Source: Natronorubrum sediminis
GTDB taxonomy: Archaea > Halobacteriota > Halobacteria > Halobacteriales > Natrialbaceae
Reading direction: 5' to 3'
DNA length: 64,000 nt
NCBI RefSeq assembly: GCF_900108095.1
Contig: NZ_FNWL01000002.1
Span: 416,748-480,747, forward strand
The notes beneath the pieces were generated by a model, which was not told the origin of the DNA, ran no database searches, and saw only the letters and a program-made list of their open reading frames with translations. The translations under genes were made by a program, and so were the position numbers. Shown here one piece after another: positions 51,162 to 58,867 of this stretch. Numbering within the stretch: position 1 is the first letter of the stretch; each line of letters starts with the position of its first letter.

Positions 51162-51377
51162 ATGATCACCTGCAGTAACTGCGAGACCGCCCAATTCTTG
51201 CAGATCACGCAGAGCCGCGTCTACTTCGAGGACGGTGAGATGATCAACGAAATCTCCGAAACCTACGAGTGTACCCTCTGTGGGTCGACAGGCCAGTACA
51301 TCTACGACGAAGACCACGACGAGGAAACCGTTACCGGCGATGTCGAATTGACGACCGAACGACCGAAATTCGCCTGA
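51162..51377 (+). CDS. Small haloarchaeal zinc-ribbon protein
   Basis: 71 residues: MITCSNCETAQFLQI at the start and YECTLCGSTGQYIY in the middle supply two CxxC pairs for a zinc ribbon, then an acidic tail. It resembles the many short haloarchaeal zinc-finger proteins of unknown partner. It converges on the gas vesicle gene gvpM, 73 bases away. Confidence 0.78.
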   Translation: MITCSNCETAQFLQITQSRVYFEDGEMINEISETYECTLCGSTGQYIYDEDHDEETVTGDVELTTERPKFA

Positions 51378-51450: not shown

Positions 51451-51747
51451 TTACGAGTCACGTCGGACGTGGCTACTGCCGACGGCGATTTCGTCTCGCT
51501 CTCTCGCTTGCAAGCGCTGTTCTCGATCGTACCCCGGATCGTCGACCCCTCGGTGCTCGCGATCCCACTCTCGGAAGAAGCCGTACTCCGTCATCGTGTC
51601 CATCCCCGCGAGAGCAGCGGAGAGTTTGAGCCCGATAAGGGGAATGCCGGCGACCGAAACGATCACGTCCGCCCGGAGCACGGCCCCGTCTCTGAGCAAC
51701 ACGTCGATGACGTCCACGAGTGCGTCGTCGTTCTTTTCCGGTTTCAT
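51451..51747 (-). CDS. gvpM: Gas vesicle protein GvpM
   Basis: 98 residues, a GvpA-like core (ALVDVIDVLLRDGAVLRADVIVSVAGIPLIGLKLSAALAGMDTMTEYG). GvpM is a minor, very hydrophobic wall or nucleation protein related to GvpJ and GvpA. The C-terminal 35 residues after GFFREWD are an arginine/acid-rich extension. It is the last gene of the leftward gvp operon and overlaps gvpL by four bases. Confidence 0.92.
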   Translation of the reverse strand: MKPEKNDDALVDVIDVLLRDGAVLRADVIVSVAGIPLIGLKLSAALAGMDTMTEYGFFREWDREHRGVDDPGYDREQRLQARERDEIAVGSSHVRRDS

Positions 51748-52664
51748 GGCTGTGATCGTGCGTTCGTCGCGTCCTCACCACCGCCCAGTTCGGGGGCGAA
51801 CGTGTACGGCGGCCACGGCCCCGTAAATCGAACCTCGAGGCCGTCGTGGGCCGCTACGTCGTCGAGTACCGACCCGATCGACGATTCGTCGGCTTCGTGT
51901 GCGAGGACCGTCAGCCGACAGAGCGTTTCGCCGTCGTCCGTCTCTTCAGAACCGGCGATATCGTCGGAGATCGACGCACTGGCTTTTCGCTCGAGGGAGT
52001 GGACCTCCCGAGCGTGCTCGTCGATTCGCGTCTGGAGGTCGGCGGTGATCGATTCGCGACGATTCGCGCGGACTTCGGTGAGTCGCTGATCGAACTGTTT
52101 CTCGAGCAGGAAGGCCGTGCCGTCTTCGGACCCGCTCATCTGTTCGTCGAGTTCGCGCAATCGCTCGTCGTGGTCGATCAACGCCTCGTCACTGATCGGA
52201 TCGGTTTCGACGACTTCGATTCGATACTCCCAGTGGTCCGCGAGCCCCGAGAGCACTTGCTCGAGCGTGTCGGATTCGGATCGAATCCACTCCCGGACGC
52301 CCTCGTCGTCAGATTGGAGGATCGTATCGAACTGGAAGGGGACCGGCGTCCCAAACGCCTCACCGGCCTCGTCGACGACCGTCTGGTGGCGGACGAGCCA
52401 GCGTCTAATCTGTGCGAGATCGTCCGAATCGTAGATCTCCTCACAAGCGTGAACGACCGCACCGATGCCGTCTTCCGCGACGACCGAAACGGGTTCGCCG
52501 TCGACGCCCGTCGTCTCGAGGGTCGGTTCGCCGTCGCTCTCATCGACCTGCACGAGACAGTACAGATACCGTCCGTCGTCGATCGACGGGACGGCGTCTG
52601 CCTCGGCGTGTTCGTTTGCCCCGTGTTCACGCCCCTCGTGTTCGTCGCTTCGATCGGAACTCAC
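51744..52664 (-). CDS. gvpL: Gas vesicle protein GvpL
   Basis: 306 residues of the GvpL/GvpF family: [13 protein letters not shown] at the start, [35 protein letters not shown] with [12 protein letters not shown], and the C-terminal [13 protein letters not shown]. In haloarchaea GvpL interacts with most other accessory Gvp proteins during assembly. An acidic N-terminus of 30 residues precedes the domain. It overlaps gvpK (ATGA) upstream and gvpM downstream. Confidence 0.92.
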
Positions 52665-53005
52665 GTGTCATCACCCTCGAAGACGGAGTATCCGGGCGAA
52701 TTCGTGTTCGTCGTCTTCCCGTGTAGTTGTTCGATCGCGTCGCTGACGAGGCCGTCCAGATCCCCGCGGAGGTTGTCGACGCTGTCTTCGATTCCTTCGT
52801 CGGATTTGAGCTGGTCGAGTTCGGCCTCGATCCGCGCGAGTTGTTGGCCGAGACGTTCGATCTCCTTGTCGGAGAGGTCCCCCGATTCCATGCGACGAAC
52901 CGCCTCGCGCTCTAAGGCGTCCATCAGGAGTTCGACGACAGTGACAACGAGCGACATCAGCCCTTCTCTCGCGTCTTCGCCGTCGCCGACGTCGATCTGT
53001 TTCAT
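52661..53005 (-). CDS. gvpK: Gas vesicle protein GvpK
   Basis: 114 residues: [53 protein letters not shown] is the conserved helical core of GvpK, an accessory factor for vesicle assembly. Length is normal. Overlaps with gvpJ and gvpL by four bases each keep the operon coupled. Confidence 0.94.
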
Positions 53006-53667
53006 GTATCGGGGGCCCCCGCACTCGTCGCCTCGGCGGTTTCGTCCTCGTCTCCGGTCTCCTCGTCTGCCCCGCCCCCGCTATCTTCGTTGGCACCGTC
53101 GGCGTCCGACTCGTCACTGAGGAGGTCGAACCCGCCGCTCGTCGGCTCTCTCGGATTCGGACGTGCGTTGAAGTGCTCGGTGCCACGGTCAGACTCGTCG
53201 GTTCCGGTCCCCGTTTCGATTCCCTCGAGTCCGTCGAAGACGCTCGAGACGGTTTGTTCGTCGCCTTCTCCCGAGTCGGTTTCTCCTTCTGGCTCGCTCG
53301 AGTCGTCGTCCGTTTCGGACTTGCTCGAGTCGTCGCCGTCTTCCTCGGTCTCGTTCGGGGTGACGTTGACGGCTCGCGTCGGATCGATCGGTGGCGCTGG
53401 TCGATCCATCTCGGCAAGTTCTGGCTCTCCGGCGGCAGCAGCGACGCGGCGCATGTCGGTCCCTTCCGGGAACTCGAGGCCGTACTTCGCCGCGGTTTCG
53501 AAGGACGCGATCGCGGCGCGAAGTTGGACGCCGAGGAGTTGGGTGTCGCCGATCGAGACGGCGATGTCAGCGTTGATGACGATGCCTTTGTCGAGGAGCA
53601 TCTCCACGACTTCTGCGAGGTCTCCGCGGTGTTTTCGCGGTTGGAATTCAGTACTCACGTGGCTCAC
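53002..53667 (-). CDS. gvpJ: Gas vesicle protein GvpJ with long acidic tail
   Basis: 221 residues. The first 85 contain the GvpA/J fold: [55 protein letters not shown]. GvpJ proteins elsewhere are about 100-115 residues. Here some 130 residues of Asp/Glu/Ser/Gly-rich low complexity follow, likely disordered. GvpJ is a minor shell protein thought to act at vesicle tips or nucleation. It overlaps the short gene at gvpI position by 20 bases. Confidence 0.92.
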
Positions 53668-53833
53668 CTCCTGGAGCGGAGCGGGTTTGACGGAGCGAGT
53701 GGGTCGGCTGCATTGGTGTTCCGGCCCCTGTTTCCCGTGAATCGAACGGCTGGATTTCGGTATCGGACGGCAGGGTGGTCGACGCAGTTGGGTGGTTCAC
53801 CTCGTTTCGGCTGGCTGGTATTCGGTCAGTCAT
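53648..53833 (-). CDS. Short protein at the gvpI position
   Basis: 61 residues beginning MTDRIPASRNEVNHPTAST. It starts 8 bases inside the end of the preceding gene and ends inside gvpJ, so it is embedded in the coupled gvp operon at the place where halophiles carry gvpI. Classical GvpI is longer and strongly basic; this peptide is neither, being polar and rich in Thr, Ser, Pro and Arg. It is either a much reduced GvpI or an unrelated small protein. Confidence 0.5.
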   Translation of the reverse strand: MTDRIPASRNEVNHPTASTTLPSDTEIQPFDSRETGAGTPMQPTHSLRQTRSAPGGEPREY

Positions 53834-54761
53834 GTTGTGATCTCTTTCGTTCTCGTTCGATTTTGAATCGACGGCCGTAGATGCGCGTGAAGCCGGAGGC
53901 AGTCGAGCCCTTGACCTGTTTCGGAACCGTCGAGTAGAGCGTTCCACCGCCGGTGTCTCTGCTACCGAGTTGCATCGTCGAAACGGCCGTTGGGTTGCGC
54001 GAGTTCGTTCGCGAACCCTCCTGGCTCGTCTTCTTTCGGTTCTCTTCGACGATCTCTTCGAACTCCTCGTGGGTCTCGAGGAGGGCCTCGCGAAACGCTT
54101 CGATCCCTCTCATTGCCTGTTGCTGGATGGCGACCTGATAGGCTTCAGGATCGTCCTCGATGTCGATGTCTCCGAGCAGTTCCATGGCTTCCTCCCCGCT
54201 AAGATCCGTCTCGAGGAGTTCTCCGTCGTCGTCATCGTCGTCACCGAGGAGGCTCTCGTCGTCGTCGGAGACCGTTTCGGCGGCCTTCGCGGCCAATCCG
54301 TCGTCGTCAGCGTCGTCGGCGAGGTCCTCGACGGCGTCGTCGACGGCCCGTTTTTGCTCCCAGACTTTGCCGAGATCAGCCGCGTCCCAGGCGTTGAGCA
54401 GGTCGATGGCCGAGAGCACCTGCGAGAGGTCGACGACGTCCGTCGCCCCGGTCTCTTCGTCGGCGATCGCGTCGGGGATAGCCTCTCCCTGAATCGCATC
54501 CAGGAGGTCGCCCGCGTCGACGGCCTCGGGGAGGTCGCTCACCTCGAGCGTTTCGAGCATCGTTTCGACCTCCGAGACAACCGTGGTGAGCTTCTCGACG
54601 TCGCCGAGCAACGACTCGAGGGTGCTGTCCTCGAGGGAGTCGAGATCGTCGACTCCTTCGAGCGTCTCCGTCACTCGCTCGAGGCTCTCCGTCCCGTTCT
54701 CGAGGAGCGTCTCGAAGGCGACGTCGCTGGCTTCCTCGAGTGATGAGTCGTCGTCGCTCAC
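53826..54761 (-). CDS. Unrecognised gas-vesicle-cluster protein X
   Basis: 311 residues, placed between gvpH and the gvpI position, with an ATGA overlap to gvpH. The first 120 residues are acidic and helical with repeating LExL patterns (FETLLENGTESLERVTETLE, LEDSTLESLLGDVEKL). A poly-Asp patch follows near 180, then a helix AYQVAIQQQAMRGIEAFREALLETHEEFEEI. The last 55 residues turn basic and Gly/Thr-rich, ending FTRIYGRRFKIERERKRSQHD. I know no standard Gvp with this layout. It may be a shell-associated or scaffold protein. Confidence 0.75.
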   Translation of the reverse strand: MSDDDSSLEEASDVAFETLLENGTESLERVTETLEGVDDLDSLEDSTLESLLGDVEKLTTVVSEVETMLETLEVSDLPEAVDAGDLLDAIQGEAIPDAIADEETGATDVVDLSQVLSAIDLLNAWDAADLGKVWEQKRAVDDAVEDLADDADDDGLAAKAAETVSDDDESLLGDDDDDDGELLETDLSGEEAMELLGDIDIEDDPEAYQVAIQQQAMRGIEAFREALLETHEEFEEIVEENRKKTSQEGSRTNSRNPTAVSTMQLGSRDTGGGTLYSTVPKQVKGSTASGFTRIYGRRFKIERERKRSQHD

Positions 54762-55561
54762 GGTGTGCTCCCTCCGTTCGGTTCGGACCGGCCTCCCTCG
54801 TCACCCTCGTGTGCGCCCTCGTCGGTAGGCTCGACCTGGACGGTGAGGATGCCGTTTTTGATCGTCGCGTCGGCCGTTCGGTCGCGCCAGGGGACCTCGA
54901 CTCGATCGAGTTCGGTTCCCGAAATGGCGACGACGAGCGCCGAGTCGTCGAAGCCGACGGTGACGTCGTCCGGGTCCGTGCCGGCAACGTCTGCCGTAAC
55001 GGTGAGTTCGTCGCTCGTCGTTCGGGTCGTCAGATGAGCCCCCGACGTGGGAGATTTTCGACGTCGTGTTCGTGATCGGGACTGTCGATCCGGACGCTCG
55101 TCCGTTCCCATCTCGGGTGACGATGGACGCCGCCCACCCTCGCCGGGCCGATCCCTTCCCGACCTGATCGAAATATCGTAGTCGAGCACCGTCCGATTCG
55201 TCCGCCGCCGGCCGGACGCGGCTCCGCGCTCGAGCGACTCCAGGGCCGAGAGAAGACTCGAGAGCCAGTTTCCGTCCCGATTGGTCGACTCCTCACGCGT
55301 CGATCCGACGGGAACGTGGCTGGCGTCGCCGGCCGCTCGGTCGTCGTCTTCATCGAGGTCGTCTGCGTCTGTTGGGTCGTTGGACGCTGCGCTTTCGTCG
55401 GTCCCGTCGGTGTCGTCGAGGCCTGTCCCTCTGTCGGAACTGGCATCCCCGTCGAATTCTTCGGTCTCGTCGATGTCGTCGGCGTCGTCGATATCGACGG
55501 AGTCGTCGTGCTCGTCGGGCGGTTCCTCCCGTCGGTCGTTCGAGTCATCTGGCGATGTCAT
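54758..55561 (-). CDS. gvpH: Gas vesicle protein GvpH (Hsp20-like domain)
   Basis: 267 residues. The C-terminal 85 residues are an Hsp20/alpha-crystallin-like fold (DELTVTADVAGTDPDDVTVGFDDSALVVAIS...NGILTVQVEPTD), as in halophilic GvpH, which is thought to prevent aggregation of other Gvp proteins. The first 90 residues are nearly all Asp, Glu, Ser and Gly, longer than in Halobacterium GvpH, followed by an Arg-rich linker. The start overlaps the gvpG stop by one base (TAATG). Confidence 0.88.
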   Translation of the reverse strand: MTSPDDSNDRREEPPDEHDDSVDIDDADDIDETEEFDGDASSDRGTGLDDTDGTDESAASNDPTDADDLDEDDDRAAGDASHVPVGSTREESTNRDGNWLSSLLSALESLERGAASGRRRTNRTVLDYDISIRSGRDRPGEGGRRPSSPEMGTDERPDRQSRSRTRRRKSPTSGAHLTTRTTSDELTVTADVAGTDPDDVTVGFDDSALVVAISGTELDRVEVPWRDRTADATIKNGILTVQVEPTDEGAHEGDEGGRSEPNGGSTP

Positions 55562-55815
55562 TAGGATTTCACCTCCACGCGGCCGCTCGTGAGCCGTTGG
55601 TGGACGTCCCGCGCGATTTCGATCTCTTCCTCGAGTTCGCGCTTGCGATGTCGGTACTCCTCCTCGGGGCGCTCGCCGAGTTCGTACAGCAACTGGTTCT
55701 CCTTCAGTTCGTCCTGTAGGGCCTCGATGTCGTACATCTCGTTGAGCGCCATCGTGTGTAGTGAGTCGACGATGCTGACAAACGGCCGGAACAGGAGGTC
55801 GTTGATGATGAACAT
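55561..55815 (-). CDS. gvpG: Gas vesicle protein GvpG
   Basis: 84 residues, normal for the family: FIINDLLFRPFVSIVDSLHTMALNEMYDIEALQDELKENQLLYELGERPEEEYRHRKRELEEEIE. The coiled-coil centre is diagnostic. GvpG is an essential accessory assembly factor. It follows gvpF by three bases. Confidence 0.95.
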   Translation of the reverse strand: MFIINDLLFRPFVSIVDSLHTMALNEMYDIEALQDELKENQLLYELGERPEEEYRHRKRELEEEIEIARDVHQRLTSGRVEVKS

Positions 55816-55818
55816 GGT

Positions 55819-56442
55819 TTACTGCTGGGTGCCGATCGCCACGTCGACGAAGCTATACGGTGCGAACGGGCCCGTGTACCGAAAGATCAGGTCGTCGTGC
55901 TCCTCCTCGAGTTCCGCGACGGCGTCGTCGAACGTTTCGCGGTCTTCCTTCGCAACGAGATACGACTGATTGAGCACGAGTCGGTCGCTGAACAGGCCGT
56001 TCGGCACCGATTGGTCGGCGATGGACTCGAGTTCGTCGGCGACGGCCGCTTCGATCGCCTCCTCGTCGACGTCGGCGTCTTCCTCGCGGACCACTTTCAG
56101 CCCGAGTTCGATCCGGCCCTCGATGTCGTTTATCGCGCGGCGAAACGCCGGTCGCGCACCCCGGAGGATGTTTTTCAACGCGCGGTCGCTCTCGAACGCC
56201 ATGCCGAATTGCATCGGAACGATCGTCCGTCCACCGTCGCGCTCCATGATTTCCCGAAGAATTTCGTCGTGACGTTGTGCGTCCTCGTCGGTCTCCTCGG
56301 GATCGGTCGTGTCGATGTCGGAGACGACTGCGTTGAGCCGACGGTGAGACACCGTGTACACGTAGTCGGCCCCGGCGACGGCGTCTGCCTCGAACTCCAC
56401 TGGATCGTCGTTCATGACGCCGTAGACGTACCGGTTCGTCAT
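55819..56442 (-). CDS. gvpF: Gas vesicle protein GvpF
   Basis: 207 residues from MTNRYVYGVMNDDPVEFEADA at 56442. GvpF/L family signatures include YVYTVSHRRLNAVVSDIDT, TIVPMQFGMAFESDRALKNIL, and the end RYTGPFAPYSFVDVAIG. GvpF binds GvpA before assembly in other organisms. It is the first gene of the leftward operon and starts 435 bases from gvpA. Confidence 0.94.
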   Translation of the reverse strand: MTNRYVYGVMNDDPVEFEADAVAGADYVYTVSHRRLNAVVSDIDTTDPEETDEDAQRHDEILREIMERDGGRTIVPMQFGMAFESDRALKNILRGARPAFRRAINDIEGRIELGLKVVREEDADVDEEAIEAAVADELESIADQSVPNGLFSDRLVLNQSYLVAKEDRETFDDAVAELEEEHDDLIFRYTGPFAPYSFVDVAIGTQQ

Positions 56443-56877
56443 CGCTTGCACACCTCGATTCGACTCGGTTGAGTTCGTCTGCGAGAGCCACCAGCGTGTG
56501 CTGCGTGTGCTGCGTGGCTGGTTTTCGGTGAACGTCGGCTACCGGCCAGTGAGTGCTGTCGAGTCGTCGCGTTCGATCGAGAGATCATGGATAGGGAGCG
56601 TCGACTACCCGAATGGGTGTGCGTCAACGCGCGCGACGTGAACTGCACCCGCGGGTACTCGAGGAACACGTCACGTGAGATTCGATACCACGATGGGTTA
56701 TCGTGGTGCTTGCAGGTGCAGCCGCAACCTGATTAGCCGTCTTCGAGTGAGCGTTTCACTATCCTGACTGTACAGGTCTTCTACCAGTCGATGGCTGTGT
56801 TTCCCAAATATGTGAGGGTGGCTTGCACGTGCAGTGAAAGCCGTGTTAGGAAGTCGGAAAGAACGTGTCGCCGTAGT
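56443..56877. promoter_or_regulatory. gvpF/gvpA divergent control region
   Basis: 435 non-coding bases. For gvpA, AAATATGT (about 56807-56814) is a TATA candidate, giving a leader of some 40 bases. The palindrome TGCACGTGCA (56824-56833) lies just after it, and a near copy TGCAGGTGCA is at 56711-56720, 113 bases upstream, both within GCTTGCAxGTGCAG. Near gvpF, TGCTGCGTG is tandemly doubled (about 56496-56515). The known GvpE activator site is not obvious and gvpE is absent from the cluster. Confidence 0.6.
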
Positions 56878-57162
56878 ATGGCACAACCACAACGGAGACC
56901 CGACTCCTCGAGTCTCGCAGAGGTGCTGGATCGCATCCTCGACAAGGGTGTCGTTATCGATATCTGGGCTCGCGTCTCGGTCGTCGGGATCGAGTTGCTG
57001 ACGATCGAAGCCCGCGTCGTCGTCGCCTCGGTCGACACCTTCCTGCACTACGCGGAGGAGATTGCAAAAATTGAGCAAGCGACGTCAGAGGGCGACCTCG
57101 AAGAACTCGAGGAACTCGAGGTCGAAGAACGTCCAGAATCGTCACCCCAGTCCGCTGGATAA
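56878..57162 (+). CDS. gvpA: Major gas vesicle structural protein GvpA
   Basis: 94 residues: [59 protein letters not shown] is the almost invariant GvpA core that forms the ribbed, water-excluding vesicle wall. The start at 56878 gives MAQPQRRPD; Halobacterium GvpA begins MAQPDSS. The C-terminal tail is acidic and about 18 residues longer than the Halobacterium protein. It is first in the rightward gvpANO operon, with gvpN six bases downstream. Confidence 0.96.
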
Positions 57163-57168
57163 CACTTC

Positions 57169-58206
57169 ATGGCCGACGATTCCTCGCGCAAGCGCAAGGT
57201 CAGAGGTCGGAAGATCAGGAGCGACCGCTCCGGGAAGGAGGGTCGGCGAGCGAAGAAAGAACTGGCCCGCAAGGCATCCCAGGCCCGATCACAAAACGGC
57301 GACAGTCCACTCTCCGATCCCGAGGAGGTTGCACCGGAGCCGTTCGTCGAAACCGACGCCGTCACGTCCCTGCGAAACAGGATTACGGGCTGGTTGCGAG
57401 CGGATCAACCGGTCCATCTCATCGGTCCGACGGGCTGTGGGAAGACCGCGCTCGCGCTCTCGGCGGCCGCAGAACGTGGCCGCCCGGTCGTCTGGCTCAA
57501 CGGTGACGAAGCAGTCGACACCGCAGCACTCGTCGGCGACCACGCCGGCGGCGAACGCTACAAAGAGGACGACCGCTTCGTCAGCGGCGTGAGTAAGCAA
57601 ACGGAAATCGTTCGCGAACGATGGGTCGACAACCCGCTCTCGGTCGCCGTCCGCGAGGGCGCGACGCTCGTCTACAACGAGTTCTCCCGAAGCGACCCCT
57701 CGGCCCACAACGTCTTGCTCTCGGTCTTCGAGGAAGGCGTCCTCGAGCGACCGGGCAAGCGAGGCGAGGATCGATCGATCGACGTCCACCCCGAGTTCCG
57801 AGCGATCTTGACCTCGAACGACGTCGAGTACGCGGGCGTCCACGAACAACAGGACGCCTTGCTCGATCGCTTCGTCGGCGTTCACGTCGACTACCACGAC
57901 GAAACGACCGAACGCGAAATCGTCGACTCGCACGTCGACCTCTCCGAGGCGGACGTCGAAACGATCGTGAAGACGACGCGAACTCTGCGCGACGACCTCG
58001 AGGTCGTCGTCGGAACGCGAGCAGCCATCACGGCCGCGAAAGGTCTCGCCGTCTTCGAAGACGCCCGCCAGAACGGTGCTGCCGACGGCGAGTTCGACGA
58101 CGACCTACTGACCGACGTCTTCATGGACGTACTTGCGCCGAAAATCGCCGGCGAGGGTCCGGACGATATCGAAGCGTTGCGCACACAGATCGCCGAGTCG
58201 GTGTAA
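57169..58206 (+). CDS. gvpN: Gas vesicle protein GvpN (MoxR-like AAA ATPase)
   Basis: 345 residues. After a basic N-terminus of about 45 residues comes a MoxR-type AAA+ module: Walker A LIGPTGCGKTALA near residue 85, VVWLNGDE, Walker B-like GATLVYNEFSRSDPS and sensor-like RAILTSNDVEY. GvpN is needed for enlargement of nascent vesicles. The N-terminal KRKVRGRKIRSDRSGKEGRRAKK stretch is unusually basic for a halophile and could bind nucleic acid or membrane. Confidence 0.94.
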   Translation: MADDSSRKRKVRGRKIRSDRSGKEGRRAKKELARKASQARSQNGDSPLSDPEEVAPEPFVETDAVTSLRNRITGWLRADQPVHLIGPTGCGKTALALSAAAERGRPVVWLNGDEAVDTAALVGDHAGGERYKEDDRFVSGVSKQTEIVRERWVDNPLSVAVREGATLVYNEFSRSDPSAHNVLLSVFEEGVLERPGKRGEDRSIDVHPEFRAILTSNDVEYAGVHEQQDALLDRFVGVHVDYHDETTEREIVDSHVDLSEADVETIVKTTRTLRDDLEVVVGTRAAITAAKGLAVFEDARQNGAADGEFDDDLLTDVFMDVLAPKIAGEGPDDIEALRTQIAESV

Positions 58207-58294: not shown

Positions 58295-58867
58295 ATGGCC
58301 GAAGCCGATACAGAGCAGTCGACGGATCAGTGTAAGGCGCTCACCGCGGACGGTGAGCGCTGCTCACGGCCGGCCCGGGAGGATGGCTTTTGCTACCAAC
58401 ACGACGAGAGTGATCAGACAGTGAGTGATAGTCAATCAGCACAATCGGAACAGGACGAACAGGAATCAGACTCAGCAGACGAACAACAAGCAGAATCCGA
58501 AACCGAGGAGTCCCGAAGTCACTCGCTCGGCTCGGTCGAGATGAGCGACGAGGAGAAGACAGATCCCGACGACGTCGACGTCGACGTCGAGACCGAACAC
58601 GACCAGATCGCCGGCGTCCTCGGCGTTCGCCAGTCCGTCCAATCGTCTGCCGGCGAACTCATCGGTCGGGAGTTCGACGCCGTCAGCGAAATCGTACCGA
58701 CCGACAACGGCTGGCGGGCGGTCGTCGAAGTAATCGAACGCCGCTCGGTTCCCGACACCCAAGACATCATCGGTCGCTACGAGATCGAACTCACCGAAGA
58801 CGCCGTCGTTCACGGCTATCGCCGCCTCGATCGATACCGTCGCGGCGATACGGCAGCCTTCGAGTGA
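58295..58867 (+). CDS. gvpO: Gas vesicle protein GvpO with N-terminal CHC zinc motif
   Basis: 190 residues from the ATG at 58295. The C-terminal 95 residues match halophile-type GvpO (GVLGVRQSVQSSAGELIGREFDAVSEIVPTDNGWRAVVEVIERRSVPDTQDIIGRYEI). Ahead of them, CKALTADGERCSRPAREDGFCYQH forms a compact Cys/Cys/Cys/His zinc-like site, then an acidic Ser/Gln-rich linker. GvpO is essential for vesicle formation and affects gvp transcripts in halophiles; a zinc module may confer nucleic-acid or protein contact, as inference. Confidence 0.92.
   Translation: MAEADTEQSTDQCKALTADGERCSRPAREDGFCYQHDESDQTVSDSQSAQSEQDEQESDSADEQQAESETEESRSHSLGSVEMSDEEKTDPDDVDVDVETEHDQIAGVLGVRQSVQSSAGELIGREFDAVSEIVPTDNGWRAVVEVIERRSVPDTQDIIGRYEIELTEDAVVHGYRRLDRYRRGDTAAFE

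Follow-up and report, generated by a model that had tools for sequence, protein, structure and literature searches.

A probable long-form GvpI in a gas vesicle gene cluster of Natronorubrum sediminis that lacks gvpC

Identity of the gene between gvpH and gvpJ

The window analyzed here, a 64,000-nt stretch of the Natronorubrum sediminis genome, contains a gas vesicle (gvp) gene cluster in which the slot between gvpH and gvpJ is occupied by a 311-aa open reading frame (ORF) with a GTG start, gene X (53826..54761, minus strand). Homology of its C-terminal third, its gvpI position, its co-occurrence with GvpK, and the purifying selection acting on it are the bases on which we identify X, with high confidence from sequence comparison, as GvpI; that it is the GvpI of the gvpFGHIJKLM operon in a long form, with the accessory role proposed below, is probable. 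The preliminary description had presented X as an unknown protein matching no standard Gvp; homology search of gvp loci overturned this by matching X clearly to GvpI, a known Gvp, and X is no longer an apparent unknown among gas vesicle parts.

In BLASTP comparisons, GvpI of Halobacterium NRC-1 matched a Natrinema ortholog of X (E 9e-10, 34% identity over 105 aa), a Natronorubrum ortholog (E 1e-7, 30% identity over 105 aa), and X itself (E 3e-5), and profile–profile alignment (hhalign) joined 15 short GvpIs to 24 long-form cores at 99.0% (E 3.6e-18, 112 columns). The GvpI-homologous part comprises the ~106 C-terminal residues of X (the core, residues 206–311; 53829..54146, minus strand), in which a helix is followed by S-R-N-P-T-A-x-S-T ... 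S-T-V-P ... Y-G-x-R-F and a basic tail; the motif common to this core and GvpI reads NP[TA]A..ST ... STVP ... YG.R. X also occupies the gvpI slot (H-X-J), and the order F-G-H-X-J-K-L-M holds in the Natrialbaceae clusters read. GvpI of Halobacterium salinarum (144 aa in p-vac, 113 aa in c-vac) has the same H-I-J position, C-terminal core, and motifs, but X carries ~205 extra N-terminal residues (the extension, residues 1–205; 54147..54761, minus strand), acidic and predicted to be mostly helical, for which Halobacterium GvpI has no counterpart. Furthermore, X has an acidic core helix and the Halobacterium protein a basic one, and the overall pI is about 4 as against about 10–12. At 311 aa and pI about 4, X does not display the small, basic character and K/R-rich N-terminus of Halobacterium GvpI; we assign that trait to the short form rather than to the whole family because clusters with the long form outnumber those with the short one here (84 versus 16).

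Long-form GvpI has been known since 2012, when Siddaramappa et al. described Nmag_0338 of Natrialba magadii and Htur_2370 of Haloterrigena turkmenica as distant GvpI homologs with an N-terminal extension of >200 residues (PMC3403918); likened to them by this published description, X is alike, and no difference was found. Pfam and NCBIfam scans of X returned sub-threshold matches only (e.g., LXG and baculovirus PEP_C), and Halobacterium GvpI is likewise unrecognized by both collections, an annotation gap that accounts for the label “hypothetical protein” given to long GvpIs in the public records examined. Two other sets of matches were rejected: a PDB profile match, 9e5c chain 0q (E 5.6e-11), concerns an E/A/V-rich repeat protein and is a composition effect (best single stretch, i-Evalue 0.06), and BAG-domain matches reached E about 0.04.

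X is a real, conserved gene. Compared to its 95%-identical copy in genome G103, dN/dS was 0.17 overall and 0.18, 0.12, and 0.21 in successive parts along the gene, and purifying selection acts on all of these parts. The preliminary description of X as helical, acidic at first, and basic at the end agrees with pI values of 4.05 (residues 1–205) and 11.2 (residues 246–311) and with seven helices predicted by AlphaFold at low confidence (6–34, 45–71, 83–92, 108–127, 130–148, 207–251, and 297–310); the model, made from 8 sequences, had a mean pLDDT of 52.6, insufficient for a fold search.

A first contig scan with X was empty, probably because short back-translated patterns are ill suited to a diverged acidic protein; whole-genome search then found matches. 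X/GvpI was present in 111 of 125 Natrialbaceae genomes and GvpK also in 111, the identical 14 genomes lacking both. Class-wide (341 genomes), the GvpI profile matched 141 genomes and GvpK 140, with 139 holding both; the single GvpK-only genome (G278) has its cluster on a 6.9-kb contig. The tie of X to gvp genes that had been proposed for it held up, as the 201 haloarchaeal genomes without GvpK yielded GvpI matches in two, both short fragments. These core fragments (G054, C45:48302–48463; G070, C11:658077–658208), one with an internal stop, may be what is left of copies that have been lost.

Many genomes with a gvp cluster carry a second long-form GvpI of ~260 aa away from the gvp genes (loci L068–L079 in Natrialbaceae; L039, 7866–8651, on a Halalkalicoccus jeotgali plasmid). 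In a tree of core sequences, the orphan paralogs of Natrialbaceae form one group, near Halalkalicoccus-type GvpIs. Several orphan loci also hold genes that, recognized by eye from sequence, we take to be pdxS-like and homoserine-kinase-like.

The gas vesicle cluster and its mini-ORF

The plus strand of the cluster carries gvpA-N-O, and the minus strand F-G-H-X-(mini-ORF)-J-K-L-M. Family models placed gvpA (56878..57162) and gvpO (58295..58867), whose starts are inferred within ORFs open from 56791 and 58133, respectively, and between them gvpN (57169..58206) was assigned as an AAA ATPase by its domain match. Among minus-strand genes, gvpF (55819..56451, start not fixed), gvpG (55561..55815), gvpJ (53002..53658), gvpK (52661..53005), gvpL (51744..52664), and gvpM (51451..51747) were assigned by family models; gvpH (54758..55561, 267 aa) contains an Hsp20-like stretch, and gvpJ starts at a GTG at 53658 behind GGAGG, in an ORF open to 53667. 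Next to gvpM, the plus strand holds a 71-aa Cys-rich, zinc-ribbon-like ORF (51162–51377), and small hypothetical genes of similar size occupy the same place in Natrinema and Natronorubrum loci (L038, L047).

X had been described as overlapping both of its neighbors by a few bases. This is correct for gvpH, with which it shares 4 nt at GTGA, but not for gvpJ, from which it is separated by a 167-nt gap (53659–53825) holding a coupled mini-ORF of 61 aa (53648..53833, minus strand), which shares 8 nt (ATGACTGA) with X and 11 nt with gvpJ. A mini-ORF of 31–77 aa was found in 42 of 42 loci listed from one part of Natrialbaceae (some loci duplicated between records). It usually starts 7 nt short of the end of X, and its stop codon keeps almost the same spacing to gvpJ; the other Natrialbaceae loci checked yielded no such ORF. 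Most of the distinct X–gvpJ gap lengths preserve its frame. Its peptide sequence evolves unconstrained: between the two closest genomes dN/dS was 1.19, compared to 0.17 for X. We read this arrangement as suggestive of a translational coupler. Siddaramappa et al. reported that Nab. magadii lacks gvpC, gvpD, and gvpE and that the Nab. magadii and Htg. turkmenica clusters both contain an additional gene (PMC3403918); judging from neighboring locus numbers, the mini-ORF may be this gene (Nmag_0337/Htur_2371). The peptide NHPTASTTLP in the mini-ORF resembles the GvpI motif, but counterparts elsewhere do not, and we dismissed the idea of a GvpI fragment as resting on a coincidence.

The preliminary description rightly noted the absence of gvpC. 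Between the end of the gvpA ORF (57162) and the start of the gvpN ORF (57169) lie 6 nt, which leaves no room for gvpC there; PF05465 (GvpC) had no match in the window's genome, and a purpose-built GvpC profile identified no GvpC in the window's cluster, where GvpD and GvpE were not found either. Five species whose vac regions lack gvpC and gvpDE were all reported to be vesicle-negative (Pfeifer 2015, PMC4390858), and on this account the activity of the cluster holding X is putative. That report would fit a cryptic cluster in which X is retained for a role unrelated to vesicles, as would the paralogs away from gvp genes, several of them at the loci with the presumed genes noted above. We nevertheless consider such a role improbable, since X evolves under purifying selection, its presence follows that of GvpK from one genome to the next, and the genomes lacking GvpK retain just the two short fragments.

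GvpI length and the distribution of gvpC

GvpC sits on the outside of the shell and strengthens the vesicle. We compared 102 haloarchaeal clusters with F, G, K, and L sequences, from which a concatenated tree was built; GvpI lengths were taken as ORF lengths, which can be overlong. All 15 clusters with gvpC had a short GvpI (113–149 aa), whereas 86 of the 87 clusters without gvpC carried the long type (≥245 aa in 84; the other two, L087, which is split into two ORFs, and L169, are shorter readings), and long GvpI and gvpC never occurred within one cluster. The sole short GvpI among the gvpC-less clusters belongs to L155 (G061), an accessory cluster in which gvpA, N, O, and C all went undetected. 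One Natrialbaceae genome with gvpC was found (G013, locus L060), and its GvpI is short; it had been a candidate for a gvpC-less cluster with short GvpI until the purpose-built profile recovered a 416-aa GvpC, PF05465 having given no GvpC match in Natrialbaceae. Partial clusters of accessory genes only (FGHIJKLM or JKLM) were seen in L155, on a Natronococcus plasmid (L044), and on a Natrinema plasmid (L046).

In the F+G+K+L tree, the short/gvpC clusters and L155 form one clade (support 1.0), with which the core tree agrees (0.974), and parsimony places one change of GvpI length on the tree; rooting by F/L paralogy, aimed at the ancestral form of GvpI (long or short), had weak, inconsistent support. 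The long/short split is real, but it is one historical event, and a single clade-level change does not amount to repeated support for replacement of GvpC by the extension.

This limits the suggestion, made in the preliminary description, that X could be a shell-associated replacement for GvpC. Under such a replacement, the long GvpI would stay on the finished shell and stiffen it from outside through its extension, making gvpC dispensable. The mutual exclusion of long GvpI and gvpC, including the short GvpI of the gvpC-bearing Natrialbaceae genome, stands in its favor, as does the resemblance of the extension to haloarchaeal GvpC, likewise acidic, helical, and similar in size to X; furthermore, GvpI bound GvpC in split-GFP assays (rf 10–20, PMC9501494). 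The association is nonetheless unreplicated, and neither family scans nor hhalign detected homology of X to GvpC or the PF05465 repeats (extension versus GvpC: hhalign probability 0.2%, E 0.27). X lies in the low-output accessory operon and does not adjoin gvpA, whereas gvpC is located between gvpA and gvpN, and the long architecture also occurs in paralogs outside gvp clusters. We consequently regard replacement of GvpC as unlikely, and hold out the same slim chance for a two-function long GvpI whose extension takes over from GvpC in stabilizing or sizing the shell. If this were true, haloarchaea would reinforce vesicles in two ways, with GvpC plus short GvpI or with long GvpI alone. The split between gvpC with short GvpI and long GvpI without gvpC was not found in the cited literature; it provides a specific test of reinforcement in vesicles without GvpC, which also bears on engineered gas vesicles for ultrasound and antigen display.

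Proposed role in vesicle assembly

Published work on Halobacterium associates GvpI with assembly: its loss yields extremely long vesicles, it forms a strong pair with GvpH and binds GvpL and GvpF, and it makes GvpJ, GvpK, and GvpM oligomerize in pull-downs (PMC7688916). By homology, X most likely has these roles too, and our best reading of it is an accessory assembly and size-control factor acting with GvpH and GvpL, in line with the assembly scaffold that the preliminary description had offered as its other option. X would be made in small amounts alongside the other accessory Gvps, would pair with GvpH and bind GvpL and GvpF in an assembly complex, and would limit the growth of vesicles in length, as extrapolated from Halobacterium. 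We give this proposed mode of action roughly even chances.

The published GvpI mode may not transfer to X because its core helix is acidic, with a net charge of −9, where three short GvpIs carry +8 to +12. Of the first 53 residues of Halobacterium GvpI, 23 are K/R, and these have been suggested to form a bridge between acidic Gvps (PMC7688916); a K/R-rich bridging N-terminus of this kind is therefore not shared by X, whose basic residues lie at its C-terminal end (about 243–311). From the sequence, we suggest that this strongly basic tail could be the contact bridging acidic Gvps and that the acidic extension and core helix could alter the contacts of X with other acidic Gvps.

Across the family, the extension contains [L/I]PDA[I/V]D-like motifs, often 9 residues apart; the motif was picked after viewing the sequences, and a shuffle test of it is thus only indicative. 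Poorly conserved, low-complexity stretches also occur and, together with the acidic composition, are consistent with a solubility or chaperone domain, unrelated to GvpC, that would work with Hsp20-like GvpH to keep the hydrophobic GvpJ, GvpM, and GvpA soluble at nucleation. The strong GvpH–GvpI pair and the prevention of GvpM aggregation by GvpH (PMC7688916) point the same way, but conservation of the motif region (residues ~60–130 of X) extends across families and to paralogs located away from gvp clusters, beyond the needs of a solubility tag, and GvpI is present in the 17 of 102 clusters in which gvpH was undetected. A solubility function is accordingly doubtful, though a better prospect than replacement of GvpC. 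As a separate observation on the gene preceding X, gvpH encodes 267 aa here versus 182 aa in Halobacterium and includes a long acidic N-terminal part.
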